64,000 bases of DNA from positions 1-64,000 of IMG/VR virus record IMGVR_UViG_3300017752_002245; one strand, given 5' to 3'. Positions within the stretch are counted from its first letter, which is position 1, and each line of letters starts with the position of its first letter. A program made the translations under genes and the position numbers. Below the pieces are notes generated by a model, which searched no databases, was not told the origin of the DNA, and saw only the letters and a list, made by a program, of their open reading frames with translations. This document shows positions 6,143 to 34,810 of the stretch, piece after piece. Source of the stretch: a virus.

Positions 6143-7858
6143 ATGATAAATTTTAAAAAACTAAGATTTAAAAATTTCCTGTCTACAGGAAATAACTTTA
6201 CTGATATAAGTTTTGATGACACACCGACTACGTTAGTGGTTGGTCACAACGGTGCGGGTAAGTCCACAATGTTGGATGCACTGTCGTTTGGACTATTTGG
6301 TAAACCCCATCGAAAGATTTCTAAGGGACAACTCGTAAATACTATTAACCAAAAAGGTACAATAGTTGAAGTTGAGTTCTCTATTGGTAAACAGAACTAT
6401 AAGATTGTCCGTGGTATCAAACCTAATAAGTTTGAGATATGGGTCAATGGTAATATGGTTAACCAAGACTCCCATGCAAAAGAATATCAATCGATGCTTG
6501 AGAAGAACATTCTTATGTTATCTCATAAATCATTCCACCAGATTGTGGTGTTGGGTTCGTCATCCTTTGTACCCTTTATGCAATTAGCTGGCGGTTCAAG
6601 ACGTGAGGTCATAGAAGACCTACTTGATATCAATATGTTCTCTAAGATGAACGGACTTCTTAAAGAGAAGATGTCTATTCTTAAAGACCAAATACACAAC
6701 AACTCACATCAAATCAATCTAGTTGATACCAAAATCAATGCACAAAAGAAGTATCTACGTGACCTGAGTGCGATATCTAGTCACCAGAAGAAACAGAAAT
6801 TAGATACTATTAAACAGTTACAAGAAGACATTCGTGTACTCAATGAGTCAAATGCGGAGGTCACTGAAGAAGTCACTGCATCTAAAGAAGTCACTACCGA
6901 AATTGTTAGTGTGGGTAAGGAACTACAATCTCTCAATGAGTTTGCAGCAGGATTTAAAACACAACAGAAGGATGTAGTCAAACAGGCAAAGTTCTTTGAA
7001 GAGAATGACAAATGTCCTACCTGTGACCAAGACATCGACCAGAAACTAAAAGAGTTTCATCTGAACAAGTGTAAGACTCGTGCGGGTACTATTAATGGTG
7101 CATTAGAAATGCACAGTCTACGTAAGTCAGACTTGGATGCAAAGTTAGAAGAACTCAATAAGATGCAAGACAATATCCGCAATTGGCAATCTAAGATTGA
7201 TGCAAACACTCAAGAGATTATGAGTATCAATAGAAACATTGACACCTTGAATGGTGAGGTTTCTAAGATTGACGAAGGTACTGGTGACCTATCAGAAGCA
7301 AACACTGAGTTAGAATCCTTGCGTACTGATAAGGAAGACCTACAAGAGTCCAAGTATAAACTCAATGAACAACACTCATACAATCAAGTGTATGCAGAGT
7401 TGTTAAAAGACACTGGTATTAAGACCAAGATTATTAAACAGTACTTACCAGTCATCAATCAGTTGACTAACAAGTACCTACAGATTCTAGACTTCTTTGT
7501 ACACTTTGATTTGGACGAAAGTTTCGTTGAGACTATTCGTTCAAGACATCGTGATAACTTTTCGTATGACTCATTCTCTGAGGGTGAGAAACAACGGATT
7601 GACTTGTCCCTACTATTTACGTGGAGACAGATTGCAAAGATGAAGAATAGTGTTGCGACCAATCTACTAGTCCTTGATGAAACTTTTGATTCATCTCTGG
7701 ATGAAGAGGGTATTGAAAACCTCATGAAGATTATCTCTACACTAGGTGAAGATACAAACGTTTTTGTTATCTCACATAAGAGTGAACTCGAAGATGCACA
7801 TTTCCATCGTAAGATTGAGTTCGTAAAAGAAAAGAACTTTAGTAAAATAAAGGCTTGA
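6143..7858 (+). CDS. gp46: Recombination ATPase subunit gp46 (Rad50-like)
   Basis: A 571-residue SMC/Rad50-type ATPase. Walker A is GHNGAGKST (34-42). A long coiled coil carries a zinc hook C291-P-T-C294. The ABC signature SEGEKQR lies near residue 480 and Walker B LLVLDE near 510. It pairs with gp47 to tether and resect DNA ends. The promoter just upstream suggests a leaderless transcript. The last codon overlaps the -35 box of the gp45 promoter. Confidence 0.93.
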   Translation: MINFKKLRFKNFLSTGNNFTDISFDDTPTTLVVGHNGAGKSTMLDALSFGLFGKPHRKISKGQLVNTINQKGTIVEVEFSIGKQNYKIVRGIKPNKFEIWVNGNMVNQDSHAKEYQSMLEKNILMLSHKSFHQIVVLGSSSFVPFMQLAGGSRREVIEDLLDINMFSKMNGLLKEKMSILKDQIHNNSHQINLVDTKINAQKKYLRDLSAISSHQKKQKLDTIKQLQEDIRVLNESNAEVTEEVTASKEVTTEIVSVGKELQSLNEFAAGFKTQQKDVVKQAKFFEENDKCPTCDQDIDQKLKEFHLNKCKTRAGTINGALEMHSLRKSDLDAKLEELNKMQDNIRNWQSKIDANTQEIMSINRNIDTLNGEVSKIDEGTGDLSEANTELESLRTDKEDLQESKYKLNEQHSYNQVYAELLKDTGIKTKIIKQYLPVINQLTNKYLQILDFFVHFDLDESFVETIRSRHRDNFSYDSFSEGEKQRIDLSLLFTWRQIAKMKNSVATNLLVLDETFDSSLDEEGIENLMKIISTLGEDTNVFVISHKSELEDAHFHRKIEFVKEKNFSKIKA

Positions 7859-7883
7859 CTTTAAATGAAACGTATGGTATCAT
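7855..7883 (+). promoter_or_regulatory. Sigma70-type promoter of the sliding clamp gene
   Basis: TTGACT (7855-7860), 17 bp spacer, TATCAT (7878-7883). The -35 box contains the gp46 stop codon. A 30-base leader with GAGAGG precedes the gp45 ATG. Confidence 0.78.
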
Positions 7884-7919
7884 ACACTTTATAAATTACA
7901 AAACCGAGAGGAATATATT

Positions 7920-8597
7920 ATGGAATTATCCGATACTACGATGAGTGTTCTAAAGAACTACTCAACTATTAACCCGAACATTGTTGTCACAGAAGGCAGC
8001 ACACTAAAGACTATTTCAGTCGCACGTAATGTTCTATCTACTGTTGAACTTACTGAAGAGTTTCCACAGTCATTTGGAATCTACGACCTGAATGAATTTC
8101 TAAATGTTCTATCCCTAGTGGATTCACCACGACTCAAGTTCGAGAAGGACTTTGTGACCGTGGGTGATTCAACTGGACGTTCATCAGTGAAGTACTTCTT
8201 CTCTGACCCTGAGATGTTAACCTCGCCTGGCAAGAATATTAATATGCCAGAAGCAGAAGTTAATTTTGTACTAGATACAGATACATTGGGCAAAGTAAAA
8301 CGTGCCGCTGCAGCTTTAGGTCACGATGAGATATCAATTACACCTGTGACGGGTGCGATTCGTTTATCAGTCATTGACAGTAAAGACGCAACAAGTAATG
8401 TATTCTCTATTGATGTAGAGGGTACGTACCCAGATGATGTTGATTTCAACTTCATCATGAATGTTGGTAACATAAAAGTTGTCAACGAAGACTTTGATGT
8501 AAGTATCAGTTCGAAACTTATTTCAAAATTTGCAAGTAAACAATCCACGATTGAATACTTTATTGCACTAGAAAAAACATCTAACTACGGAGCATAA
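7920..8597 (+). CDS. gp45: DNA polymerase sliding clamp gp45
   Basis: A 225-residue protein, close to T4 gp45 (228). It shows the expected beta-strand pattern, including LKFEKDFVTVGDSTG and VFSIDVEGTYPDD. Three copies form the ring that tethers the polymerase, and in T4 the ring also activates late transcription with gp55. Start chosen at ATG 7920 after GAGAGGAA. It is followed by one small gene and a terminator, then the clamp loader. Confidence 0.9.
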   Translation: MELSDTTMSVLKNYSTINPNIVVTEGSTLKTISVARNVLSTVELTEEFPQSFGIYDLNEFLNVLSLVDSPRLKFEKDFVTVGDSTGRSSVKYFFSDPEMLTSPGKNINMPEAEVNFVLDTDTLGKVKRAAAALGHDEISITPVTGAIRLSVIDSKDATSNVFSIDVEGTYPDDVDFNFIMNVGNIKVVNEDFDVSISSKLISKFASKQSTIEYFIALEKTSNYGA

Positions 8598-8599
8598 AG

Positions 8600-8815
8600 A
8601 TGGCAAAAGCACAACAAGCAGAAAAAGACCACTCTTCAATCTATGAACTTGGTAACAGAGTTTCTCGTTCTACAGTAGCAGTAATTGATACTGTTGTACA
8701 ACGAGGTGGATTCAAGGGTGAGGAATTATCAACCATTGGTCAACTAAGAGACCAAGCGGTTCAAATTATTCAACTATGTGAGGAGTATCAATCCGAACAA
8801 GGAGTTGAAGAGTAA
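8600..8815 (+). CDS. Small protein downstream of gp45, 71 aa
   Basis: Good ribosome binding site (GGAG) and ATG two bases after gp45. Mostly helical, with a TIGQLRDQAVQIIQLCEEY amphipathic helix. Co-transcribed with the clamp and ends before a strong terminator. It does not resemble T4 RpbA. Function unknown. Confidence 0.65.
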   Translation: MAKAQQAEKDHSSIYELGNRVSRSTVAVIDTVVQRGGFKGEELSTIGQLRDQAVQIIQLCEEYQSEQGVEE

Positions 8816-8836
8816 ACGTTGCGTTCCTCGTGACGT

Positions 8837-8878
8837 GGGGGTGTGAGAGTTCCTTTCCTTTCCACCCCCGAATTTTTT
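8837..8878 (+). terminator. Rho-independent terminator after the gp45 unit
   Basis: GGGGGTG (8837-8843) pairs with CACCCCC (8863-8869) around a 19-base loop, followed by a run of six T. It separates the gp45 unit from the gp44 promoter, which starts two bases later. Confidence 0.82.
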
Positions 8879-8879
8879 C

Positions 8880-8908
8880 TTGACTATTTGTTTCATATAG
8901 TGTACAAT
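8880..8908 (+). promoter_or_regulatory. Sigma70-type promoter of gp44
   Basis: TTGACT (8880-8885), 17 bp spacer, TACAAT (8903-8908). The leader is about 33 bases, with GGAG before the gp44 ATG at 8948. Confidence 0.78.
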
Positions 8909-8947
8909 GTATATTATTAGAAACACTTTTATTATTATGGAGACATT

Positions 8948-9886
8948 ATGTCTAAAGAATTCCTCTGGGTTGAGAAGTACAGACCCCGACTAATTGGAAC
9001 TACCGTTCTACCCCAAGACCTGAAAGATACTTTCCAAAAGATTGTAGACTCGGGCGAAATCCCCAACATGTTATTCACTGGTACTGCGGGTACTGGTAAA
9101 ACTACAATCGCACGTGCGATATGTGACGAACTAGGACTTGACTATATTGTCATCAATGGTTCAGAAGAGGGTAACATCGATACCCTACGTGGTAAAATTA
9201 AACAGTTCGCCTCATCCGTTTCTCTCTCAGGCGGTTACAAGGTTGTTATCCTTGATGAGGCGGACTACCTTAATGCACAGTCAACCCAACCCGCACTGCG
9301 TGGTTTTATCGAAGAGTTCTCTCAGAACTGTCGATTCATTCTGACTTGCAACTTTAAGAACAAAGTAATCGAACCCCTACACTCTCGTTGCAGTGTGTAT
9401 GAGTTCAACACATCTAAAAAACAAATGGCACAACTTTGTGGTGAGTTCATGACTCGACTACAAATCATCCTTGATGGTGAAGGTGTCACATATAATAATG
9501 ATGTTATTGCGGGACTAATTGGTAGGTACGCACCAGACTGGAGACGTGTACTTAATGAAGCACAACGTCATTCTATCTCTGGTAAGTTGGACACTGGTGT
9601 TCTCATTAACGAGAGTAATGCAAACTACGGTTTACTTTTCCAGTCATTGAAATCCAAAGACTTCAAGAAGATGCGTAGTTGGGTGGTCAACAATATGGAC
9701 ACCGAACCTGCCGCAATCTTCCGTGGTATCTATGACTCCATGGAGGGTAAAGTTGCACCAACATCTATACCTCAACTGGTCTTGATACTCGCTGATTATC
9801 AATACAAGAATGCGTTTGTCGCTGACCACGAACTAAACCTTGTTGCATGTCTGACTGAATGCATGGCAAATGTGGAGTTTGTATAA
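8948..9886 (+). CDS. gp44: Clamp loader large subunit gp44
   Basis: A 312-residue AAA+ ATPase. N-terminal WVEKYRP motif, Walker A GTAGTGKT (45-52), Walker B LDEAD (about 102-106) and the arginine-finger SRC motif near residue 146. Four gp44 and one gp62 load the gp45 clamp on primed DNA. gp62 lies 1.4 kb downstream, separated by small membrane proteins, mazG and dCMP deaminase. Confidence 0.93.
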   Translation: MSKEFLWVEKYRPRLIGTTVLPQDLKDTFQKIVDSGEIPNMLFTGTAGTGKTTIARAICDELGLDYIVINGSEEGNIDTLRGKIKQFASSVSLSGGYKVVILDEADYLNAQSTQPALRGFIEEFSQNCRFILTCNFKNKVIEPLHSRCSVYEFNTSKKQMAQLCGEFMTRLQIILDGEGVTYNNDVIAGLIGRYAPDWRRVLNEAQRHSISGKLDTGVLINESNANYGLLFQSLKSKDFKKMRSWVVNNMDTEPAAIFRGIYDSMEGKVAPTSIPQLVLILADYQYKNAFVADHELNLVACLTECMANVEFV

Positions 9887-9892
9887 ATAATC

Positions 9893-10063
9893 ATGAACAA
9901 ATTTTGGACGATATGGAAACATGCACTCGGTTCTTTTGATGAAGAAGACGGGTATGATGTTGAGAATGAAAATAGAATCTCATACATCCGCACGTTTATA
10001 GTACTCTCCAATTTATTGTGTGCATACATCATAATGATTAACATTATAATAGGATGGTTTTAG
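9893..10063 (+). CDS. Small membrane protein, 56 aa
   Basis: ATG six bases after gp44. N-terminal KFWTIWKHALG, an acidic stretch, then one membrane helix (about residues 31-54). The next gene encodes a similar layout (KWWRVWAKSLG, IRT motif, one helix), so the two look like diverged tandem copies. Function unknown. Confidence 0.6.
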   Translation: MNKFWTIWKHALGSFDEEDGYDVENENRISYIRTFIVLSNLLCAYIIMINIIIGWF

Positions 10064-10236
10064 TGCAAAAATGGTGGAGGGTTTGGGCGAAAAGTCTTGG
10101 TGAGAAAGTCGGAGAGACTGACCAACAAGCAAACACCATAGCAGTCATTCGGACTGTTTGGTGGTTAACACACATGGCAACATGTATTTTTATTATTTTA
10201 AATGCGATAGCAAATCACGGTTGGGATTTATTATGA
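10063..10236 (+). CDS. Small membrane protein, 57 aa, paralogue of preceding gene
   Basis: GTG start overlapping the previous TAG (TAGTG). An in-frame ATG at 10054 is possible but would overlap more. KWWRVWAKSLGE, an AVIRTVWW segment and one membrane helix parallel the preceding protein. It ends by overlapping the mazG start. Confidence 0.55.
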   Translation: MQKWWRVWAKSLGEKVGETDQQANTIAVIRTVWWLTHMATCIFIILNAIANHGWDLL

Positions 10237-10595
10237 GTTATCAAGAACAAGTAGAACAGTTCATGATGCAAGGGGAACAGAAGTTTCCTCAAGATATCAA
10301 ATCAGACATGGCAGACCTGTACATGTCTCTAATCACAGAAGAGTATAACGAAACATGGGAAGCATTCCATAAACGAGACCTCGTAGAAGTTGCGGATGGT
10401 CTTGCAGATATGGTGTGGGTCATTATGGGTATGGCATCCGTATTGAATATTCCTTTTGATGCAGTATGGAATGAAGTCCGTGCATCCAATATGTCTAAGT
10501 TCGTTGACGGTAAAGTCGTTAAGAATGCAGACGGTAAGATTATGAAACCTGACGGATACTTCCGTCCAGACATTGCGAAGGTGTTAAATGATTAA
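10233..10595 (+). CDS. mazG: MazG-like nucleotide pyrophosphohydrolase
   Basis: A 120-residue all-alpha NTP pyrophosphatase. The ITEEYNETWEAF helix and the EVADGLADMVWVIMG helix supply the EExxE...ExxD metal-binding pattern of MazG/dUTPase-like enzymes. In phages these lower (d)NTP or ppGpp-related pools. The ATG at 10233 overlaps the previous stop; the longer frame from 10158 adds 25 residues without family similarity. Confidence 0.75.
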   Translation: MSYQEQVEQFMMQGEQKFPQDIKSDMADLYMSLITEEYNETWEAFHKRDLVEVADGLADMVWVIMGMASVLNIPFDAVWNEVRASNMSKFVDGKVVKNADGKIMKPDGYFRPDIAKVLND

Positions 10596-10788
10596 ATATT
10601 TACGACAAGTATCCAACGTTCTCGACCAAGTAACAACAGACAAATTTGGTAATCGTATCCACAAAGATACAGGTGACTATGTTATTATTGTTGCAAAAAG
10701 TGAAGAGAAAGTAGAACATCAACCAGTAACCATGGTCAAAGTGAATAACGAGTGGTTACCTAAACAGATGGAATTCGATTTTGGATAA
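10588..10788 (+). CDS. Hypothetical protein, 66 aa
   Basis: Overlaps mazG and the dCMP deaminase by 8 bases on each side, so it is part of this nucleotide-metabolism run. Mixed alpha/beta, ending in KQMEFDFG. No family recognised. Confidence 0.6.
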   Translation: MIKYLRQVSNVLDQVTTDKFGNRIHKDTGDYVIIVAKSEEKVEHQPVTMVKVNNEWLPKQMEFDFG

Positions 10789-11239
10789 GTGGGATGTAGC
10801 ACATATGAAGACCGCAAAAGTTTATGCGAGTCTATCTAGTGCCAGAAGATTACAGGTAGGTGCAGTTATCGTAAGAGATAATAGAATCATCTCTATTGGA
10901 TACAATGGTATGCCTAGTGGATGGGACAATAACTGTGAACATACTACCGTTGTAAATAAAGCGTTGCCTGGCGAACCAGATAACTTTGTAGAAACTTTAA
11001 AAACTAAACCAGAGGTAATACATGCGGAATCGAATGCAATCACGAAAGTTGCAGCTTCAACGGAACAGACGAAGGGTGCAGTTCTTTACACAACACACGC
11101 ACCATGCGTTGACTGTGCCAAACTCATCCACCAGTCTGGAATCGAACGAGTTGTCTATGCAGAAGAGTACCCCAAAGGTGACCAAGGATTGACTTTCCTT
11201 GACAAGTGTGGTATAGTAGTTGATGTACAACCGCTCTAG
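10781..11239 (+). CDS. cd: Deoxycytidylate deaminase
   Basis: A 152-residue zinc deaminase. H81-A-E83 and P108-C109-x2-C112 bind zinc and carry the catalytic glutamate. It converts dCMP to dUMP, the substrate of the phage ThyX encoded at 23 kb. The start is TTG (10781), overlapping the preceding gene. A promoter for gp62 lies inside its 3' end. Confidence 0.9.
   Translation: MDKWDVAHMKTAKVYASLSSARRLQVGAVIVRDNRIISIGYNGMPSGWDNNCEHTTVVNKALPGEPDNFVETLKTKPEVIHAESNAITKVAASTEQTKGAVLYTTHAPCVDCAKLIHQSGIERVVYAEEYPKGDQGLTFLDKCGIVVDVQPL
11189..11217 (+). promoter_or_regulatory. Intragenic sigma70-type promoter for gp62-regA
   Basis: TTGACT (11189-11194), 17 bp spacer, TATAGT (11212-11217), inside the end of the dCMP deaminase gene. 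Transcription would begin near 11224. Confidence 0.6.
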
Positions 11240-11306
11240 GTATATTAAGAACAAATACGGATATCCTTCTACTAAGAAGGGTACTCTAATTGACATTTAT
11301 GTGTGA
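11223..11306 (+). CDS. Possible 27-aa peptide
   Basis: ATG overlaps the end of the deaminase gene and the frame stays open to 11306, six bases before gp62. The peptide is basic and tyrosine-rich. No clear ribosome binding site; it may only be a short leader frame. Confidence 0.25.
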   Translation: MYNRSRYIKNKYGYPSTKKGTLIDIYV

Positions 11307-11312
11307 GAAACA

Positions 11313-11690
11313 ATGAATCCCTTTAATTATGTAAACAGTATCAACCTATCCAAGAAGGACATTATGATTACTCCAGAAGATGAGAAATCATATAATTCCT
11401 TTATGGTTAACCGTAGTCTATCGTATTTCTCTGATACCGCTGTAATTGCGAATGAGATGAACCGATATCACCATCTAGATTCCCGTCTACAATATTCATT
11501 TCTTATAAATATAATTAGGAAACGAAAACGTTTCTCTAAGTGGGTAAAACCTGAATTAGAACATGACCTTGAGTCGGTGAAAGAATACTATGGATACAGC
11601 AATGAAAAAGCTAAACAATGCCTACATCTCTTATCACCTTCTCAGTTAAAAGAAATAAAAGAAAAGGTGAATAAAGGTGGAAGAAAGTAA
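11313..11690 (+). CDS. gp62: Clamp loader small subunit gp62
   Basis: A 125-residue protein with gp62 features of marine T4-like phages: N-terminal MNPFNYVNSIN, a SFMVNRSLSYFSDT stretch, and RKRKRFSKWVKPE. With gp44 it loads the clamp. It is shorter than T4 gp62 (187), as is usual in marine relatives. It overlaps regA by 14 bases, as expected for this pair. Confidence 0.85.
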   Translation: MNPFNYVNSINLSKKDIMITPEDEKSYNSFMVNRSLSYFSDTAVIANEMNRYHHLDSRLQYSFLINIIRKRKRFSKWVKPELEHDLESVKEYYGYSNEKAKQCLHLLSPSQLKEIKEKVNKGGRK

Positions 11691-12087
11691 TTTAGTAAAA
11701 TGGGCTCCTGTGAACATGTTAGAGGTAACTCTAGCAGAACCAGATGACTTCCTTAAAGTTCGTGAGACTCTGACTCGTATCGGTGTCGCATCACGCAAAG
11801 AACAAAAACTATTTCAATCCTGTCATATCTTACATAAACAGGGACGATACTATATTGTCCATTTTAAAGAGTTGTTTATGTTGGACGGAAAGAAAGCAAA
11901 TCTAGAAGAGAGTGACGTGCATCGTAGAAATACAATTGCAACATTGTTATCTGACTGGGGATTAGTTGAGATTCAAAACAAAGAAGTATGTCAAGAATGC
12001 GCCCCTCTACGACAAATCAAAATAATCGGTTTCAAAGATAAAGCAGAATGGGAGTTGTGTCCCAAGTATAATATAGGTAACAAATAA
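11677..12087 (+). CDS. regA: Translational repressor RegA
   Basis: A 136-residue protein matching RegA: EVTLAEPDDFLKVRETLTRIG, QSCHILHKQGRYYIVHFKELF. RegA binds the start region of early phage mRNAs and blocks ribosome access. Start is GTG 11677. If several early transcripts here are leaderless, RegA targets might differ from those in T4 (inference). Confidence 0.9.
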   Translation: MEESNLVKWAPVNMLEVTLAEPDDFLKVRETLTRIGVASRKEQKLFQSCHILHKQGRYYIVHFKELFMLDGKKANLEESDVHRRNTIATLLSDWGLVEIQNKEVCQECAPLRQIKIIGFKDKAEWELCPKYNIGNK

Positions 12088-12252
12088 ATGACACAGTGGT
12101 TGTTTAATAAGTTATCACCTTATGCTATTCAATTTAGAGAATGGTCTAAGGGTAAAACATGGATACAAATACCGTTATGGATTCTTATCGCATGGATGTT
12201 AGGATTCGCTAATCCTTACTGGTGTGTATATCCTGTTTGTTGGATTCAATAG
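12088..12252 (+). CDS. Small membrane protein, 54 aa
   Basis: ATG directly after the regA stop. One membrane helix (about residues 25-42, IQIPLWILIAWMLGF) and a cysteine-containing tail. Its TAG overlaps the GTG of the next gene. Function unknown. Confidence 0.55.
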   Translation: MTQWLFNKLSPYAIQFREWSKGKTWIQIPLWILIAWMLGFANPYWCVYPVCWIQ

Positions 12253-12809
12253 TGTTTGAAGAACATAGGGAAGAGATTCGCAGTAAGAAACACTGGTGGT
12301 CTAAGATACCTTTTCAGTGGGACTGGAACGACATGTTGCACCTTGTTGATACTCATCCACAAGAGTTATATGACTGGAATCGTGAGAAACAAAGACTAGG
12401 ATTAAACTCTTTTCATAGAAGACCTTCTGCACCTCAGTTTGCAAAAAACCTTGTTGCAGAAATGGAGAAGTTCTTTGTTGAACCCGCTCCAAAGAAAGAC
12501 GAATATACGAAGGGAAGACCTCAAATAACAAACATTGCGTTTGTTGGATTTGGACAGTTTTCTGGTTCGTACCCAAGACATAAAGACAGTATGGATGTCT
12601 TCTTGGTTCAAGTAATCGGTGACTGTAAGATAACTATCGGTGAACAAGAAGAACCAAGGAATAGTGACGAAACAACTGTAATGAAGCCTGGCGATTGTGT
12701 TTTCATACCAAGAGGTACATGGCATCATTTACAACCCTCAGTATCTAGAGTCACATTCTCATTTGGATTTGAGAGTGACCCAGACTGTGACCCAAAAACT
12801 TTTATATAA
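12252..12809 (+). CDS. Cupin/JmjC-like iron-dependent oxygenase candidate
   Basis: A 185-residue protein counted from GTG 12252 (coupled to the previous TAG). H110-x-D112, followed by a KPGDCVFIPRGTWHHLQPS segment with H158/H159, fits a JmjC/cupin double-stranded beta helix that binds Fe(II). Such proteins often hydroxylate proteins or RNA-associated factors; the target is unknown. A longer frame from 12222 adds ten residues and is less likely. Confidence 0.62.
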   Translation: MFEEHREEIRSKKHWWSKIPFQWDWNDMLHLVDTHPQELYDWNREKQRLGLNSFHRRPSAPQFAKNLVAEMEKFFVEPAPKKDEYTKGRPQITNIAFVGFGQFSGSYPRHKDSMDVFLVQVIGDCKITIGEQEEPRNSDETTVMKPGDCVFIPRGTWHHLQPSVSRVTFSFGFESDPDCDPKTFI

Positions 12810-12812
12810 GGC

Positions 12813-12842
12813 TTGAATTATAAAAATTAATCCTTATATATA
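12813..12842 (+). promoter_or_regulatory. Weak promoter candidate for hsp20
   Basis: TTGAAT (12813-12818), 18 bp spacer, TATATA (12837-12842). Weaker than other promoters here. It would give a leader of about 80 bases that contains the hairpins described next. Confidence 0.45.
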
Positions 12843-12846
12843 GTAG

Positions 12847-12930
12847 TGTGAGAAATAATTCTCACATGCGTGAATGCCGTTAATCGGGTTCACGTCCATC
12901 TTGCTAAATTAATATAGGAGATAAAGCAAC
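12847..12930 (+). promoter_or_regulatory. Structured hsp20 leader, candidate ROSE-like RNA thermometer
   Basis: Three possible hairpins lie in a row before the hsp20 ATG. (1) TGTGAGAA (12847-12854) pairs perfectly with TTCTCACA (12859-12866). (2) CGTGAA (12869-12874) pairs with TTCACG (12889-12894) around an inner CCG/CGG. (3) TTGCT (12901-12905) can pair with the Shine-Dalgarno AGGA (12916-12919) in the UYGCU manner of ROSE elements, or alternatively with AGCAA (12925-12929). Confidence 0.5.
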
Positions 12931-13347
12931 ATGACAAATCTAAAAGTAGGTAAACAACTTTTCCCACGTTCAGCATTTATTGGTTTCGACCATTTATTTA
13001 ACGAACTGGAATACGCAACCAAACACGCTAACGACCATTACCCACCTCACAACATTGTGAAGACTGGTGAAGATGAGTTCGTCATTGAGGTAGCAGTTGC
13101 GGGATTCACACAGGACGAAATAAACGTTGAACAGAAAGAACGCTCATTGACCATTAGTGGTTCACATGAATCTAGAGACCGTGAAGTAATTCACAGAGGT
13201 ATCTCTACAAAAGCGTTTAGGAGACAATTTAGACTTTCTGAGTATGTTCTAGTAACTGGTGCTTCACTAAAAGACGGTATCCTTGCAGTTACATTGAAGA
13301 CGGAAATCCCAAAAGAGAAGCAGCCTCGTTCAATTAAAATAAGTTAA
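12931..13347 (+). CDS. hsp20: Small heat-shock protein Hsp20
   Basis: A 138-residue alpha-crystallin-domain protein. The core EFVIEVAVAGFTQDEINVEQ and the SISGSHE-like strand are typical of IbpA/Hsp20. The C-terminal IKIS replaces the common I-x-I anchor. Such chaperones hold unfolding proteins; T4-like cyanophages often encode one. Strong GGAG ribosome binding site, possibly masked by the leader hairpin. Confidence 0.9.
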   Translation: MTNLKVGKQLFPRSAFIGFDHLFNELEYATKHANDHYPPHNIVKTGEDEFVIEVAVAGFTQDEINVEQKERSLTISGSHESRDREVIHRGISTKAFRRQFRLSEYVLVTGASLKDGILAVTLKTEIPKEKQPRSIKIS

Positions 13348-13360
13348 TTGCGAGGAAAAA

Positions 13361-13447
13361 ATGAAATTAACCGAAGCTAAATTAGAGTTCGGTTTGTTTG
13401 TAGGAACTATGATGTTAATGGTTCTTGCACTACAACCCTTACTGTAA
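13361..13447 (+). CDS. 28-aa membrane peptide
   Basis: GAGGAAAAA ribosome binding site precedes ATG 13361. The peptide is one hydrophobic helix (FGLFVGTMMLMVLALQP). A terminator-like hairpin follows eight bases after its stop, which supports it as the last gene of the hsp20 unit. Confidence 0.5.
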   Translation: MKLTEAKLEFGLFVGTMMLMVLALQPLL

Positions 13448-13454
13448 AAACGAG

Positions 13455-13478
13455 AAGGGGGCGGGAAACTGCCCCTTT
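13455..13478 (+). terminator. Terminator-like hairpin after the hsp20 unit
   Basis: An eight-base-pair stem (13455-13462 with 13471-13478, one G-U pair) and an eight-base loop. The T tract is short, so it may be partial. Confidence 0.55.
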
Positions 13479-13487
13479 CATTATGTT

Positions 13488-14228
13488 ATGAAAGCATATA
13501 TGATTGCAGACCTGAACAATCCAACTTCCGTGAGATATACGGAGATTGCATTAGAGTCATGGCATAATAAAACCCCCCTTGACATTGAAGTCATTCAGTG
13601 TTATACTCCCGACACAATATCAGAATTAGAACCTCTCTATAACTGGCAACCATTGTTACATCATGGTCAAAAGGAACAGAAACAGTATGCGTCATCCACT
13701 GAAAAGTCTGGAGACATTACACACTGGCAGTTAATAAAGAAACGTTCAGAGTCTAAATCAAGATTCTACGTATTGGAACATGACTCATATCTAGAAGATG
13801 CAGACGAATTTAAACGACAGTTTGATTTTACTATGGAACATGGATTGTCTTATGCAAACCATGGACTCTACATGTCTTGTTATTCTTTTTCTAGAGTTGC
13901 AGCAATACATATACATGACTTGTTAACACAACGAGCATTTCCTTTAAATGGAGGCCCGTTTGGATGTGTAGAAAGATTGGTAAAAACATATCTAAGTGAA
14001 AAACCTGACCGCAAGGCAAAGTATACATGGATGTTACATCATCCAAATACAGAGGCAGTAAGTGTGGGATGGTCTGCCGAAGAAATGTTTCAAGCATATA
14101 ATTTTAAGAAAAATGATACTCCCTTCAAACGTGCATCAACCCAGATTATATCCAAGTCTATGGGAATCACCCAAAATCATATAGGGTTGGATTTGTCATT
14201 AAGAAAAGGTTTTAAAATAATTGAATAA
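13488..14228 (+). CDS. Hypothetical protein, 246 aa, possibly glycosyltransferase-like
   Basis: Begins at ATG 13488 just after the hairpin; an upstream frame to 13425 crosses the hairpin and is unlikely. No good ribosome binding site. The N-terminal IADLNNPTSVRYTEIALESW and the FYVLEHDSYLED segment (an acidic HD/DxD-like turn after a beta strand) recall GT-A glycosyltransferases, but the match is weak. It precedes the structured RNA locus. Confidence 0.5.
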   Translation: MKAYMIADLNNPTSVRYTEIALESWHNKTPLDIEVIQCYTPDTISELEPLYNWQPLLHHGQKEQKQYASSTEKSGDITHWQLIKKRSESKSRFYVLEHDSYLEDADEFKRQFDFTMEHGLSYANHGLYMSCYSFSRVAAIHIHDLLTQRAFPLNGGPFGCVERLVKTYLSEKPDRKAKYTWMLHHPNTEAVSVGWSAEEMFQAYNFKKNDTPFKRASTQIISKSMGITQNHIGLDLSLRKGFKIIE

Positions 14229-14233
14229 AAAGC

Positions 14234-14262
14234 TTGACAAACCCCGTTGAGTTTAGTATAAT
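14234..14262 (+). promoter_or_regulatory. Strong promoter of the non-coding RNA
   Basis: TTGACA (14234-14239), 17 bp spacer, TATAAT (14257-14262): full consensus in both boxes. It is preceded by AAAAAGC, as in the promoters at 25084, 33998 and 61171. No coding frame follows. Confidence 0.85.
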
Positions 14263-14268
14263 AGATGT

Positions 14269-14543
14269 ATTGGTTGGGAATGACGTGACCACCCGCCTAG
14301 GGAAGTTTGTGACTTGACGGTGAGTAAGCGACTGACTCCATTAGACTGATTAACATATCAGTGATGGAATCGACATAAGGTGGAAAAGTTAAAAAAACAA
14401 AATCAATAGAATTCAAACTTACCGAGTTACAAATGCGTAACAGTACAGTAAGGAGTCTTCCCCCCTAGAGGGTTGAAGGAAAGAACACACTGATTAGGTG
14501 TCCCTCAAAGTAGCTTCAATCCTTGATGATGGGGGTTTTTTTT
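14269..14543 (+). ncRNA. Structured non-coding RNA of about 275 nt, unknown family
   Basis: This gene-free stretch has a consensus promoter at one end and a C5/G5 stem plus eight T at the other. It lacks any long frame but holds several stems: TCCAT/ATGGA with inner ACTGAT/ATCAGT (14337-14368); CTTAC/GTAAG with inner GTTAC/GTAAC (14418-14452); GGGTTGAAG/CTTCAATCC (14470-14478 with 14514-14522); and CCCCC/GGGGG (14461-14465 with 14531-14535). CCACC near 14290 can pair with GGTGG near 14380. It does not match tmRNA, RNase P RNA, SRP RNA, tRNA or group I intron signatures that I know. Confidence 0.7.
14461..14543 (+). terminator. Terminator of the non-coding RNA
   Basis: CCCCC (14461-14465) pairs with GGGGG (14531-14535), enclosing the nine-base-pair stem GGGTTGAAG/CTTCAATCC. 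Eight T follow at 14536-14543. The gp43 promoter begins four bases later. Confidence 0.65.
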
Positions 14544-14546
14544 ATC

Positions 14547-14575
14547 TTGACTTTTGTATTATCTTCCTGTATAAT
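14547..14575 (+). promoter_or_regulatory. Sigma70-type promoter of DNA polymerase gp43
   Basis: TTGACT (14547-14552), 17 bp spacer, TATAAT (14570-14575). A short leader with TAGGAT precedes the ATG at 14599. Confidence 0.82.
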
Positions 14576-14598
14576 ACAACATTAACTTAGGATTTTCT

Positions 14599-17070
14599 AT
14601 GGATTTTTATACATCAATTGACCGTTACGGCAGCACCCTTTTATATCGTGGGTACTCTGGTGGTCAACGAGTCAAGAAACGTATCCCGTTTAAACCAACA
14701 CTGTTTGTAAACTCTCGTAATAAGAACAACGTATCTGGTTGGTCTTCATTAGAGGGTAGACCAGTTGAACCCATTGAATTTGAGACTATGCGTGAAGCAA
14801 CCGAATTCACCAAACGTTATCAACACGTGGACAACTTCAAGGTCTATGGACAAAACAATTTCATCTCACAATTTATCGCACAGAAGTTTCCGAATGATAT
14901 AAAGTTCGAACGTGAACTACCTGTAATCACCACCATTGATATTGAGGTCGCATCTGACCAAGGATTCCCTGAACCTGATAAGGCAGACTATCCTGTTATC
15001 TCTATCTGTACCAAGTCCAGTAAAGAAGACTTCTTCCGTGTCTGGGGTCTAGGTGAATACACTCCCAAAGAAAACTGTATCTACAATCAATGTGACAATG
15101 AGTTACAACTATTGGATACATTCCTTGACTACTGGCAGAATCATGGGTCACCTGATATCGTCACTGGTTGGAACAGTAAGGGATTTGATATTCCTTATCT
15201 TGTTAACAGAACAAGAAAAGTTATTGGAGAAGAGTCCACCAAGAGATACTCACCTTGGGGTGTTGTATCCGCACGTACTGTACGTGGTAAGATGGGACAC
15301 AAAGATGTGGAGACCTATGACCTTATGGGTATTGCACAGTTAGATTACTATGACTTGTTTCGTAAGTTTACACTCAACACTCTAGGTCAACAAGAATCAT
15401 ATCGACTTGACCATATCGCACACGTGGTACTTGGTGAACGTAAACTCTCATATGAAGAACACGGTAACCTACATACATTATATAAAGAAGACCATCAAAA
15501 GTTTATTGACTACAATATCAAGGACGTTGAGTTGGTTGATATGTTGGAAGAAAAACTGGGATTGATTACTCTTGCAATGACTATGGCATATCGTGGTGGT
15601 ACTAACTTCGAGGAAGTATTCGGTACGACTACTATTTGGGATACAATCATCTATCGTATTCTTAACCTACAGAAGATTGCAGTACCATCCAAAGAAGAGA
15701 AACCCAAGGGTGACTTTGCGGGTGGATATGTAAAAGAACCCCAAGTTGGTTCACATGATTGGGTAACGTCCTTTGACTTGAACTCCCTGTATCCTATGAT
15801 TATTGTACAATACAATATGTCACCTGAGACTGTGGTAGATGGTTTAGTTGATACTGACGTAGAACGTATGTTACAAGGTATGACTAAGACCGATAGTAAT
15901 TATGCAACTGCACCATCTGGTGTTCGTTTCCGTAAGGATAAGGAAGGTATTATTCCTAGTGTGATTCGACAGTACTATGCAGAACGTAAACAAATCAAAC
16001 GTGAGATGTTGGACGCAAAACAAGAATACGAACAGACCCCAACAAAGTCCCTTGCAAACAAAGTTGCAACTCTAGATAACCAACAGATGTCTATCAAGAT
16101 TCTTATGAACAGTCTCTATGGTGCATTGGGTAATCGATGGTTCAGATACTTTGACCAACGTGTTGCAGAGTCTATTACTCTTGCGGGTCAGTTATCAATT
16201 CTCTGGGCAGAACGTGCGGTCAATCATGAGATGAACAAACTTCTCAATACTGACGAAGACTATGTGATTGCAATTGATACTGATTCAGTCTATATGCGTA
16301 TGGGTGACCTAGTCAACAAGTTCAACCCCAAAGACCCTGTAAAGTTCTTGGATAAGATTTGTTCCGAACACTTTGAACCTGTACTGACTAAAGCTTATGA
16401 AGTTCTTGCAGACTATACCAATGCATATGTCAATCGTATGGAGATGGGACGTGAGGTTATTGCAGACAAAGGTATTTGGGTTGCAAAGAAACGATACATT
16501 CTGAATGTACATAACAATGAGGGTGTCCAATACAAAGAACCAAAACTCAAGATTATGGGTATTGAAGCGGTCAAGTCATCAACCCCGATGGTTGTTCGTG
16601 ATAAGATGAAAGAGATGTTCCACATACTTGTGAATGGTACTGAGTCTGAGACCCAACAGTATATCAGAAACTTCCGTAATGAGTTTTCCTCGTTACCACC
16701 TGAAGATGTATCATTTCCCCGTGGTGTAAATGATGTCAAGAAATGGAAAGATACAAAATCTATTTACAAGAAGGGTACACCTATCCATGTGCGTGGTGCT
16801 TTGTTATATAACAAGCATACCAAAGGAATGCGTCATGAGGAAATCAAGAACGGTGAAAAGATTAAGTTTGTCTATCTAAAAGTTCCGAACCCGATAAAAG
16901 AAAACATCATATCATATCCGCAGAACCTACCCCGTGAGTTGGGTCTTAATAATTATATTGACTATGACAAGATGTTTGACAAGACATTCCTTGACCCACT
17001 TGAACCTATTATGGATGCAGTCGGTTGGACTGCTGAACCTCAGTCATCATTAGAAGATTTCTTCGCTTGA
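14599..17070 (+). CDS. gp43: Family B DNA polymerase gp43
   Basis: An 823-residue replicative polymerase. The 3'-5' exonuclease motifs are D114-I-E116, [14 protein letters not shown] and [10 protein letters not shown]. Polymerase motifs are [12 protein letters not shown] (D393), [13 protein letters not shown] and D560-T-D562. The C-terminal SSLEDFFA resembles the clamp-binding tail of T4 gp43, so it should run on the phage gp45. Length is near the usual 830-900. Confidence 0.96.
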
Positions 17071-17095
17071 CATTTTAAGGAGACTATGGTATTAT
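17067..17095 (+). promoter_or_regulatory. Promoter of the primase-like gene, leaderless
   Basis: TTGACA (17067-17072), 17 bp spacer, TATTAT (17090-17095). The -35 box overlaps the gp43 stop. The start of transcription would fall at 17102-17103, at the ATG of the next gene, without room for a ribosome binding site. Confidence 0.75.
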
Positions 17096-17102
17096 ATACA
17101 CA

Positions 17103-18059
17103 ATGAAATATTCACTTACAATCTTTCAAAATACTTTTGACAACAAGACCCACCGAACTATGACGTTCGATTCGTGGGAAAAGTTCGTTGTATTGTTAAG
17201 TGAACTATATGATAAAAAAGGAGAAAAAGGTGGTAGAAATTCTAGTCCTCTTATTAGTCCTGCTAATTATGTCACCGATACTACACGGTCTAATAAGAAT
17301 GTTAATCGCTGGTCTGGTTGGTGCTGTCTTGACGTTGATGATTATATGGTACATACTGATTCCAATCGCAGTCCTGTTGAGTGCCTAAAACAACAACTAC
17401 AAGAAAAGTATGGTCGATTTGAGTATGTGTGTTATAACACTGCATCATCTAGTAAAGACCAACCCAAGTTCAGATTAGTATTTCCCCTGACACGACAAGT
17501 TGATAGAAAAGACTTACCACACTTCTGGTTTGCTATGAACAAACGGTTTGAGGGTATGGGTGATGAACAAACAAAAGATTTATCACGGATGTACTATGTC
17601 CCCGCACAGTATCCAGACGCATATAGTTTTATGTTTACTAATGAAGGTGTGCATCTTGACCCTGATATGTTGATGGACAAGTATTCGTTTGTTGAACCAC
17701 AAGGTAATACTTTCATGGATAGATTGCCACCTGAACTACAGAAAGCAGTCTTAGAACATCGTAAGAATTCACTAGATAACACAGATTACACTTGGACATC
17801 ATATCGTGATTGTCCGTTCTTCCCTAGAAAGTTAGAACAAGAATATAGAAGTATTACTAATACTGGTTGGTATCATAAAATGTATCAGATTATGATTGCA
17901 GTAGCTGGTAATGCAGTTAGTAAAGGGTATCCTATTTCCGCATCTCAGATTGCAGAAATGTGTACTCAGTTAGACATGGAGACTGGTAACTGGTATGAGA
18001 ACCGACCATTAAACAAAGAAGCAGACCGAGCATTGGAGTACATATATCGTAATGGATAA
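17103..18059 (+). CDS. AEP/PrimPol-like primase candidate
   Basis: A 318-residue protein. WSGWCCLDVDDYM gives an hhhDhD-like metal site, followed by FEYVCYNTASS, KFRLVFPLT and LSRMYYVPAQ, the order seen in archaeo-eukaryotic-type primase domains of mobile elements. The C-terminal 100 residues look helical like PriCT domains. Placed between gp43 and uvsX, it may prime or support replication. No T4 gp61 primase is visible in the window, so it might substitute for it (inference). Confidence 0.5.
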   Translation: MKYSLTIFQNTFDNKTHRTMTFDSWEKFVVLLSELYDKKGEKGGRNSSPLISPANYVTDTTRSNKNVNRWSGWCCLDVDDYMVHTDSNRSPVECLKQQLQEKYGRFEYVCYNTASSSKDQPKFRLVFPLTRQVDRKDLPHFWFAMNKRFEGMGDEQTKDLSRMYYVPAQYPDAYSFMFTNEGVHLDPDMLMDKYSFVEPQGNTFMDRLPPELQKAVLEHRKNSLDNTDYTWTSYRDCPFFPRKLEQEYRSITNTGWYHKMYQIMIAVAGNAVSKGYPISASQIAEMCTQLDMETGNWYENRPLNKEADRALEYIYRNG

Positions 18060-18315
18060 GTGGCAAGTAATACAAGGACGTAAGTCCGAGAAAGATAAAA
18101 TACTATTGTACCAAGGAAAAGCCGTTTCTTTTCGTGACGTTGCAATGATGTGTATATTCTTCATGGAGAATGAAGACATACTATATCCACCATCCCGTGG
18201 TCTAAAAGGTGCGGAGATGTTTAAAGACTATATAAAAGAAGTGTTAGAAAACAGAAAAGTTCCTACGGATAGTAAATATGCGATTAGGAAAAACCACGGA
18301 GTTGTAAAAGTATGA
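18052..18315 (+). CDS. Hypothetical protein, 87 aa
   Basis: Overlaps the primase-like gene by 8 bases and the epimerase by 4. Contains a helical FRDVAMMCIFFMEN segment and a basic tail. No family recognised. Confidence 0.6.
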   Translation: MDKWQVIQGRKSEKDKILLYQGKAVSFRDVAMMCIFFMENEDILYPPSRGLKGAEMFKDYIKEVLENRKVPTDSKYAIRKNHGVVKV

Positions 18316-19250
18316 GAATATTGATTACTGGTGCAGCGGGTTTCATTGGTTCACATCTTGCAGATAGTTTATTAGAAGATGGATTTGATGTTGTTGGATT
18401 AGACAACTATAACAACTACTATGACCCCGCACTTAAAAAAGACAGAGTTGCATACTTTGGTCATCAAGTATATAAGGCAGATTTAAAAGAGTTTGACGAA
18501 GTAGACCGTGCATTTAATAAGTTAATGCCAGATGTAGTCATTCACCTTGCCGCTCGTGCGGGTGTACGTGACTCTGTTGGTAATGAACAGTTATATCACC
18601 AAGACAATATCATTGGAACACAGAACCTTATTCAAGTATGCAAAATGTATAAGGTTAAGAAAGTTCTCTATGCATCTACTAGTTCAGTCTATGGTGGAAC
18701 ACCTATCCCTAAAACAGGATGGGTTGAAGATGAGGTTACTGGTCACCAGTTGAATCCATATGCATATACAAAGTATTGTAATGAATGTCAGTTTAAAATC
18801 TCTGGACTAAACAATATAGGACTAAGGTTCTTTACTGTATACGGCCCTTGGGGTAGACCTGACATGGCATTATATCAGTTTGCAGATTCGATTGTTGCGG
18901 GTGATTCTATTGAAGCATATAACTATGGTAATATGAAAAGAGACTTCACCTATGTTGGTGACATTATCGAAGGTATTAAATTAACACTATTTGCTGACCT
19001 ACCGTCTGGAGAAATCTTCAACATAGGTAGAGGTAAACAAGTAGAACTTATGCATTTTATTGATTGTATAAGTAAAGAACTGGGTAGAGATGTTGATGTA
19101 GTTCTCGCACCTCGACACCCCGCAGATACTCTAGAGACTTGGAGTAATACTGCGAAACTAAGAGAACTAGGATATAAACCCAGAGTAAACATTGAAGTAG
19201 GTGTTGAGGCATTTATTAGATGGTACAAAGATTATTACGGAGTAAATTAA
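18312..19250 (+). CDS. NAD-dependent sugar epimerase (UDP-glucuronate 4-epimerase-like)
   Basis: A 312-residue short-chain dehydrogenase. Nucleotide motif GAAGFIG (7-13) and active-site Y150-x3-K154. LDNYNNYYDPALK and RFFTVYGPWGRPDMA are typical of UDP-glucuronate epimerases. With the next gene it could turn UDP-glucose into UDP-galacturonate, for surface or DNA sugar modification. Phage virulence or host surface change is inference. Confidence 0.85.
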   Translation: MRILITGAAGFIGSHLADSLLEDGFDVVGLDNYNNYYDPALKKDRVAYFGHQVYKADLKEFDEVDRAFNKLMPDVVIHLAARAGVRDSVGNEQLYHQDNIIGTQNLIQVCKMYKVKKVLYASTSSVYGGTPIPKTGWVEDEVTGHQLNPYAYTKYCNECQFKISGLNNIGLRFFTVYGPWGRPDMALYQFADSIVAGDSIEAYNYGNMKRDFTYVGDIIEGIKLTLFADLPSGEIFNIGRGKQVELMHFIDCISKELGRDVDVVLAPRHPADTLETWSNTAKLRELGYKPRVNIEVGVEAFIRWYKDYYGVN

Positions 19251-20197
19251 TGAAAGATGATGGTTTAAGAAATCTAAATCCTGACGGTTCACCTCAACAG
19301 GTGCAGACAAGACTAAAAATTGGTATTGTTGGTCATGGTTTTGTAGGGGGTGCAGTAGACTATGCGTTTACCCATCCTGAAATTGATATGTATTATGTTG
19401 ACCCAAAACACAATACAACGATTGATGACTTGGTTGATTGGCAACCACATGTGTCGTTTATTTGCGCTCCAACTCCAATGTCGGATGATGGGTTTGTTGA
19501 TGCGTCCATTGTAGAAGACGCAGTATTAAAACTATTGGAACATACAGAAGGTGGTGTTGTTGTCAAATCAACAATCACTCCAGATATTGTTGACCGTTTA
19601 TATTCTTCAATCTTTGAAGATGACATCAAACGTTTGACTATCAACCCTGAGTTCCTGACAGAATCAAATGCAAAAGAACAGTTTGTAAATGCAGAGTATC
19701 ATGTTATTGGTGGTCACCCTGACGCATGTCAAGGTCTTGCACAGTTGTATGATGTGTACAGTCTATGTACTGCAACAGAATATTTGTTCTGTTCTGCACC
19801 AGAAGCTGCATTCATTAAGTATGGAGTGAACTCATTCCTTGCAACTAAAGTAACATTCTTTAATCAATTATATGATTCTGCAATTGGATTTGGTTGTAAT
19901 TTCCCTACTATTGCAAATGCAATCGGTAAGGACAAAAGGATTGGTGTTGGTCACACCCGTGTGCCTGGCTATGATGGTAAACGTGGATTCGGTGGTGCGT
20001 GTTTCCCCAAGGATACAAAAGCATTTACTTTATTCGACCCTAGCTTGACTTTAATTGATAAGTGTGTTAGTATAAACAATGAATTTCGTAATGGTTACGA
20101 ATTAGATAAACGTGAGGAAGAAAATAATGTCAAGTATGATGGACAAGCTGAAGAAGAACAGCAAGATAAAAACGACAGCGATACTGTCGGAGAGTAA
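19250..20197 (+). CDS. UDP-glucose 6-dehydrogenase-like enzyme
   Basis: A 315-residue nucleotide-sugar dehydrogenase with GIVGHGFVGG (25-34), the NPEFLTESNA substrate motif and catalytic C251 in GGACFPKDT. It oxidises UDP-sugar to the uronate. Start ATG 19250 overlaps the epimerase stop. Shorter than typical enzymes (about 390), with a reduced C-terminal domain. Its last 71 bases overlap uvsX, so its polar tail is encoded over the uvsX start. Confidence 0.8.
   Translation: MKDDGLRNLNPDGSPQQVQTRLKIGIVGHGFVGGAVDYAFTHPEIDMYYVDPKHNTTIDDLVDWQPHVSFICAPTPMSDDGFVDASIVEDAVLKLLEHTEGGVVVKSTITPDIVDRLYSSIFEDDIKRLTINPEFLTESNAKEQFVNAEYHVIGGHPDACQGLAQLYDVYSLCTATEYLFCSAPEAAFIKYGVNSFLATKVTFFNQLYDSAIGFGCNFPTIANAIGKDKRIGVGHTRVPGYDGKRGFGGACFPKDTKAFTLFDPSLTLIDKCVSINNEFRNGYELDKREEENNVKYDGQAEEEQQDKNDSDTVGE
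20045..20073 (+). promoter_or_regulatory. Intragenic promoter for uvsX
   Basis: TTGACT (20045-20050), 17 bp spacer, TAGTAT (20068-20073), inside the dehydrogenase gene 54 bases before the uvsX start. It would allow uvsX to be expressed apart from the sugar genes. Confidence 0.6.
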
Positions 20198-21179
20198 ATT
20201 TTTTACAGAAACAGATATGGTGCCAACCGATGTTCCAATGGTGAACGTTGCGTTGAGTGGAAGTATTGACGGTGGTATCACGCCTGGCTTAACGGTACTA
20301 GCAGGCCCGAGTAAGCACTTCAAAACTTCATTTGCATTGCTAATGGCAAGTGCATATATGAAGGCAAAGAAGGACGCAGTAATGCTCTTTTACGATAGTG
20401 AGTTTGGTAGTCCCCAATCTTACTTTGAGCAATTCGGAATTGATACCTCACGGGTGTTACATACACCCATCGCCAATGTCGAGGAACTCAAGTTTGACTT
20501 AATTGGTCAACTTGAATCAATCGATAGAAAAGATGACGTAATAATCGTTATCGATTCAATTGGTAATCTCGCATCCAAAAAAGAGTTAGAGGATGCAATC
20601 AACGAGAAGTCGGTGGCAGATATGTCCCGTGCTAAAGCATTGAAGGGTCTCTTTAGGATGTGTACTCCATATCTGACCATGAAGAATATCCCTATGCTTG
20701 CCGTCAACCACACATATAAAGAAATTGGACTATTCCCTAAAGACATCGTAGGTGGTGGTACTGGTATATACTACAGTGCAGATAACATCTGGATTCTGGG
20801 AAGACAACAAGATAAACAAGGAACTGAGATAAAAGGTTACAGGTTTATCATTAATGTGGAGAAATCACGTTATGTTAAAGAGAAATCTAAAATACCTATC
20901 ACAGTATCTTGGGAAGGTGGTGTCCAACGTTTCAGCGGTCTTTTGGATGTCGCTCTCGTTGGTGGTTATGTCGCTAAGCCTTCTAATGGTTGGTACTGTC
21001 GTGTGGATAGGGATAGTGGTGAATTGGTTGACCCAAGAGTTCGAGAGAAGGACACCCTTCAAGAAGAATTCTGGAAACCAGTCTTCGCAGATACCGACTT
21101 CGCAGACTTCCTCAAGTCACAATACTCAATTGGACTCGCACAAAAAGTAGACATGGAAGAGATAGCAAATGTCGAATGA
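20127..21179 (+). CDS. uvsX: RecA-like recombinase UvsX
   Basis: A 350-residue protein close to T4 UvsX: SKFFTETDMV, Walker A AGPSKHFKTS (59-68), VIVIDSIGNLASKKE, AVNHTYKEIG, GGGTGIYYSAD. It coats single-stranded DNA and performs strand exchange for recombination-dependent replication with gp46/47 and gp41. Start ATG 20127 follows GAGGAAG at good distance; the upstream GTG at 20112 lies on that site. Confidence 0.95.
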   Translation: MSSMMDKLKKNSKIKTTAILSESKFFTETDMVPTDVPMVNVALSGSIDGGITPGLTVLAGPSKHFKTSFALLMASAYMKAKKDAVMLFYDSEFGSPQSYFEQFGIDTSRVLHTPIANVEELKFDLIGQLESIDRKDDVIIVIDSIGNLASKKELEDAINEKSVADMSRAKALKGLFRMCTPYLTMKNIPMLAVNHTYKEIGLFPKDIVGGGTGIYYSADNIWILGRQQDKQGTEIKGYRFIINVEKSRYVKEKSKIPITVSWEGGVQRFSGLLDVALVGGYVAKPSNGWYCRVDRDSGELVDPRVREKDTLQEEFWKPVFADTDFADFLKSQYSIGLAQKVDMEEIANVE

Positions 21180-25083: not shown

Positions 25084-25112
25084 TTGACAAACAGCGCCAT
25101 TCTTGTTATAAT
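25084..25112 (+). promoter_or_regulatory. Strong promoter, cassette type
   Basis: TTGACA (25084-25089), 17 bp spacer, TATAAT (25107-25112). The block from the AAAAAGC upstream to the AAAGGAGA ribosome site is nearly the same at 33998, 34782, 61171 and 61506. Confidence 0.85.
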
Positions 25113-34666: not shown

Positions 34667-34785
34667 AGGGTTATAAAAAAGGTACTCTGTTACAGGAGTA
34701 CTTCTTGAACCCGCACTTCAAACCTACGAAGAAGGAAAAGAAGGAATTAGAAACTTTTTTTCAAAATAAGGTAAATAAGTCTTGA
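34663..34785 (+). CDS. Small basic protein, 40 aa
   Basis: ATG overlaps the previous stop. Lysine-rich, with LLQEYFLNPHFKPTKKEKKE. Its TGA lies within the -35 box of the next promoter. Confidence 0.5.
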   Translation: MKGYKKGTLLQEYFLNPHFKPTKKEKKELETFFQNKVNKS

Positions 34786-34810
34786 CATTACTTGTCGGAC
34801 TTGTTATAAT
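34782..34810 (+). promoter_or_regulatory. Strong promoter, cassette type
   Basis: TTGACA (34782-34787), 17 bp spacer, TATAAT (34805-34810). A CAAAATAAG half-site like the 33029 palindrome lies upstream near 34762. Confidence 0.83.

Follow-up and report, generated by a model that had tools for sequence, protein, structure and literature searches.

A family of structured non-coding RNA found at two genomic loci in related marine T4-like phages

6S RNA is a stand-alone, structured RNA that works through protein binding, and phage T4 carries two small RNAs, RNAC and RNAD, within its tRNA cluster. These two RNAs of a T4-type phage are of unknown function and have been classed as late (PMC9697503). 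Structured RNAs of phages and prophages, also of unknown function and often near tRNA genes, have been described as ROOL (about 660 nt) and GOLLD (over 800 nt) (PMC12286853), and the lytic phage ICP1 produces an abundant, free-standing non-coding transcript of about 800 nt beside its lysis genes (PMC7567579).

The RNA considered here lies directly ahead of the gene for the family B DNA polymerase, gp43, in the window (the whole 64-kb stretch of phage DNA that was analysed). Compared with GOLLD and ROOL it is shorter (~275 nt), matches no Rfam family, and adjoins a tRNA gene in four of its eight copies. It has a host-type promoter, unlike the late RNAC and RNAD, to which it is likened by description and not by sequence. 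The ICP1 transcript, compared by description only, is likewise free-standing, but differs in size and position. Whereas 6S RNA is one long rod with a central bubble resembling an open promoter, the consensus fold of the phage RNA has two domains and a multiloop closed by helix P1.

Covariance models of Rfam 15 (4227 families) gave no match at the gathering cut-off; at E<=10 CRISPR-DR60 and NsiR1 alone appeared, both far below cut-off and not credible, and ARAGORN found no tRNA or tmRNA fold in the RNA. An earlier note, made from the letters of the sequence, had named this Rfam search as a check and had set aside tmRNA, RNase P RNA, SRP RNA, tRNA and group I introns, a judgement borne out here. 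Its three guesses at identity fared differently. A new class fits the absence of any Rfam match; a 6S-like RNA gained no positive evidence, given the two-domain fold and the Rfam result; and the same is true of a sponge, for which many loop GGA motifs would be the mark of the Csr/Rsm type. The window copy has six GGA, about the expectation from composition, and only three are kept in all copies; this lack of enrichment argues against a CsrA sponge. With its own promoter and terminator, a covarying fold, and no bond to a single neighbour, the RNA belongs in kind with the stand-alone structured RNAs of phages, among which it forms a new family.

The transcription unit in the window

The RNA locus fills the largest gap free of open reading frames in the whole window (14229-14598), between an upstream gene that ends at 14228 and gp43, which starts at 14599.

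14234-14262, + strand: sigma-70 promoter of the RNA, TTGACA-17-TATAAT, 12/12 match
14267-14543, + strand: RNA gene, with an expected start at about 14269 and its end at the eighth T

The promoter is the sole 12/12 sigma-70 site within 9000-20000, and the count of looser promoter-like sites was not above that in shuffles. The RNA, about 275 bases long, ends in a C5/G5 stem (GGGGG at 14531-14535) and eight T (14536-14543). The promoter of gp43, TTGACT-17-TATAAT, begins at 14547, four bases past the T run. No open reading frame of at least 40 amino acids overlaps 14269-14543 on either strand; the longest frame over the RNA, in antisense and with a TTG start, has 39 codons. The consensus promoter, the frameless 275 bases, the terminator with eight T and the separateness from gp43 described in the earlier note are all confirmed by these findings.

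Conserved fold and its domains

The fold rests on comparison of copies. In six sequences it comprises 58 pairs with 98.9% standard pairs, and 12 pairs are changed on both sides; neither value was reached in any of 500 shuffles. When helix partners were slid, at most one both-side-changed cell was left and the signal was gone. Across eight sequences, 98.9% of the 5'-domain cells are paired. The eight distinct sequences form three groups, and many of the compensatory changes represent one split between two of these. Aligning the same locus in relatives, another check proposed in the earlier note, has yielded covariation. The folding energy of the whole RNA is modest (z -2.0, with 5 of 200 shuffles equally good) and is weaker for single domains and for relatives; the minimum-energy fold differs from the conserved one, and by stability alone the RNA could not be called structured.

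14268-14408, + strand: 5' domain, closed by P1, the most conserved part
14268-14275 with 14401-14408, + strand: P1, three pairs changed on both sides
14292-14302, + strand: hairpin CYC-GCCUA-GGG of the 5' domain, pairs almost invariant
14305-14329, + strand: hairpin GUUUGU.ACU/GGU.A.UAAGC of the 5' domain, pairs almost invariant
14336-14369, + strand: P3 (CUCCAUU/GAUGGA) and an inner ACUG/CAGU stem, with compensatory changes
14382-14403, + strand: conserved A-rich strand GGAAAAGUUAAAAAAACAAAA, shortened in L004
14409-14460, + strand: P4/P5/P5b region
14409-14411 with 14458-14460, + strand: P4
14418-14422 with 14448-14452, + strand: P5
14426-14430 with 14437-14441, + strand: P5b
14461-14543, + strand: 3' terminator domain
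14461-14465 with 14531-14535, + strand: P6
14472-14478 with 14514-14520, + strand: P7
14485-14488 with 14498-14501, + strand: P8
14509-14513, + strand: conserved AGUAG
14536-14543, + strand: run of eight T

Between the window and the divergent copy L171 the 5' domain is 83.6% identical and the 3' domain 59.5%, compared with 72.5% for the DNA of gp43. One pair of P1 reads C-G for U-A in both L004 and L084, members of two different groups, and P1 covaries again in L171 and L170. The two small 5'-domain hairpins have no covariation support because their paired positions are almost invariant; GGGAA, CGUGACCAC, CGCCUAGGGAAG and UAAGCGAC are invariant stretches of this domain. Beyond it, P5 occurs as CUUAC/GUAAG, CUCAA/UUGAG, CUCAU/AUGAG or CUAA/UUAG, with the insertions of L032 and L034 sitting in the P5/P5b loops, and P6 as CCCCC/GGGGG, as CCCUC/GAGGG in L084, and as CGCCC/GGGUG in L171 and L170; P7 and P8 vary among copies with pairing kept. 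In the divergent copies L171 and L170 the main helices remain possible; the table of P5 to P8 variants was set by hand and shows compatibility, not an independent test.

Three further pairings were considered and dropped. The six-sequence fold contained a helix P2 (CAC.CG.CUAG/CUAG.CG.GUG) whose pairing fails in L171 and L170, and the hairpin at 14305-14329 was put in its place. L084 lacks a candidate H-type pseudoknot of the 3' domain, AGGG/CCCU; and L170 does not preserve a GUUUGU/ACAAAC pairing.

Copies at two genomic loci

With the polymerase as query, IMG/VR yielded 80 loci, three of them identical to the window. L004, L030/L033, L034 and L032 carry the RNA upstream of gp43 at 75.8-89.8% identity to the window, the copy in L084 was added by a 5'-core pattern search, and L169, L170 and L171 were found with the pattern GACCACNCGCCTAGGGAA. 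Eight distinct copies are thus known from IMG/VR, that of the window included (the RNA sequences of L169 and L171 are identical), and six of these directly precede gp43. The RNA occurs once per record in the records searched. Blast against phage and plasmid records returned nothing of length, and when 84,980 species genomes were searched for exact occurrences of the invariant core (17 fixed bases), three matches came up, all unrelated; within the collections searched, only a narrow group of phages has the RNA. A weak model match in phage C48C1 (16.1 bits) overlaps annotated genes and has most core pairs broken, another in a further contig was inspected and rejected, and pattern matches in L087, L099-L105, L106-L117, L118-L120 and L164-L168 look like chance, without further resemblance.

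In four of the six gp43-locus copies a tRNA-Glu(TTC) gene adjoins the T run of the RNA within a few bases.

L030 2865-2939: tRNA-Glu(TTC) gene after the T run
L032 1828-1902: tRNA-Glu(TTC) gene after the T run
L034 2865-2939: tRNA-Glu(TTC) gene after the T run
L084 10489-10563: tRNA-Glu(TTC) gene after the T run

Because these gaps are too small for a separate promoter, the RNA promoter probably serves the tRNA as well in these four copies, and expression of tRNA-Glu(TTC) would need readthrough of the RNA terminator.

The RNA is absent from 22 of 25 inspected loci that share the upstream gene, the exceptions being the window group, L004 and L084. In the 22, the stop codon of the upstream gene abuts the gp43 promoter or overlaps with it, and nothing separates the two. 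The nearest of the named phages, C48C1 (gp43 62.9%), likewise has no RNA ahead of gp43. Compared with these phages, the RNA and its promoter are an insertion, unless it is these phages that have lost them.

A related phage, L171, carries the RNA at a different place in its genome. L169, L170 and L171 score about 136 bits against the 5'-domain model and share with the window RNA its kind of promoter, its helix order and a T run, and in L171 and L170 (two of the eight distinct copies) the RNA precedes an unrelated small gene, not gp43. The L171 RNA, at 21036-21178, stands between a 287-codon and a 113-codon gene, 11 kb from gp43 (7652-10117), which is 74% identical to gp43 of the window (72.5% at the DNA level) and has no RNA ahead of it. 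Its promoter reads TTGACA-17-TATTAT (11/12), with a spacer partly conserved relative to that in the window. From the two loci, together with the absence from 22 of 25 relatives, it follows that promoter and RNA travel as a unit. The neighbours of the L171 site are matched by homologues between 23.9 and 32.4 kb in the window; there the window carries a further TTGACAAAC promoter with a short gene, and no RNA. Taken together, the promoter and terminator, the covariation, the second locus and the many gp43 genes of relatives that lack the RNA bear out the stand-alone structured RNA proposed in the earlier note.

Strong TTGACA-17-TATAAT promoters precede short genes at 25084-25112 and 34782-34810 of the window. 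The one at 25084, which sits at the position of the L171 RNA, has GCTTGACAAAC in common with the RNA promoter and is a possible recombination point.

Proposed role, alternative readings and other phage features

The proposal is that the locus is a phage gene in its own right, which encodes a ~275-nt structured non-coding RNA and has a host-type sigma-70 promoter and its own intrinsic terminator. The RNA would be transcribed during infection, and probably early, since the promoter is of host type; it would act in trans and not on gp43. The 5' domain changes slowly and has invariant stretches, which suggests that it is the surface at which a conserved partner binds; the likeliest candidate is a host protein or ribonucleoprotein, which the RNA would occupy or recruit. 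The fast-changing 3' domain may serve mainly as a stabilising terminator structure. That this is a free-standing, trans-acting RNA gene is held with considerable confidence; the whole statement, partner-binding 5' domain included, is favoured with moderate confidence. A decoy or scaffold that binds a partner, in preference to an antisense regulator, is predicted tentatively. Doubtful, if conceivable, is the further idea of an RNA effector of a new class, a mobile "RNA moron": early in infection its conserved 5' domain would bind a host machine and either disable or redirect it; polymerase, ribosome, an RNA-binding regulator or a defence protein could, just as speculatively, be the target.

Unlikely, though the best placed of the alternatives, is an Hfq-type base-pairing RNA acting on host mRNAs through a conserved unpaired seed, with Hfq binding the A-rich strand and the U tail. 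The conservation of that strand (14382-14403) and the U8 tail agree with it, but in L004 the strand is cut by ten bases, and Hfq-type sRNAs are mostly shorter and less elaborate than this RNA. Complementarity to the rest of the window is also no more than chance: no stretch reaches 13 bases, and matches of 11 and 12 bases are about as frequent as in shuffles. Within the window, no antisense target in the phage can thus be made out.

It is less likely still that the RNA is a cis-acting leader or attenuator, its promoter starting the gp43 or tRNA-Glu mRNA and its structure deciding passage of the terminator. Six copies directly precede gp43, and four of those tRNA-Glu, which would suit such a role, and a CCCC-N4-GGGG hairpin could compete with terminator stem P6. 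Against this, gp43 has its own promoter downstream of the T run, most related gp43 genes lack the RNA, and in L169-L171 an unrelated small gene follows it; its presence at another locus in a related phage, with gp43 of L171 lacking it, removes the simplest cis-regulatory reading for gp43.

A small mobile element or relic, with a structure serving only its own spread, has very little probability: the promoter-RNA unit does occur at two loci, but there are no terminal inverted or direct flanking repeats beyond A/T runs, each record searched has a single copy, and both the paired positions and the 5' domain have been conserved. A short protein gene is least credible of all, since the GTG-started frame of 52-62 codons that is open across the RNA in L030, L032 and L084 is disrupted by stops or frameshifts in the window copy and L004 and shifted by a 14-base insertion in L034, and the substitutions track base pairing.

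Phage accessory genes are nearly always sought as proteins. For the trans-acting RNA gene preferred here the accessory gene would be an RNA, with its own promoter, under structural selection, and present at two genome places in related marine T4-like phages; its covariation-supported consensus makes it searchable elsewhere, and it can be deleted and its partner pulled down.

Two other features of these phages were noted. A ROSE_3-type RNA thermometer, a predicted heat-sensing leader on a phage chaperone gene, precedes hsp20 in the window (12868-12936; 23.1 bits, local E 0.0076, below the Rfam cut-off), in L032 (135-200) and in L034 (1188-1253), the latter two at 44.5 bits and above the cut-off. 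A CHASE2-adenylate/guanylate cyclase gene, unexpected in a T4-like phage, lies at 30686-32443 of the window and 7701-9533 of L171; the two are 81% identical, and the Pfam match was made on the L171 copy.
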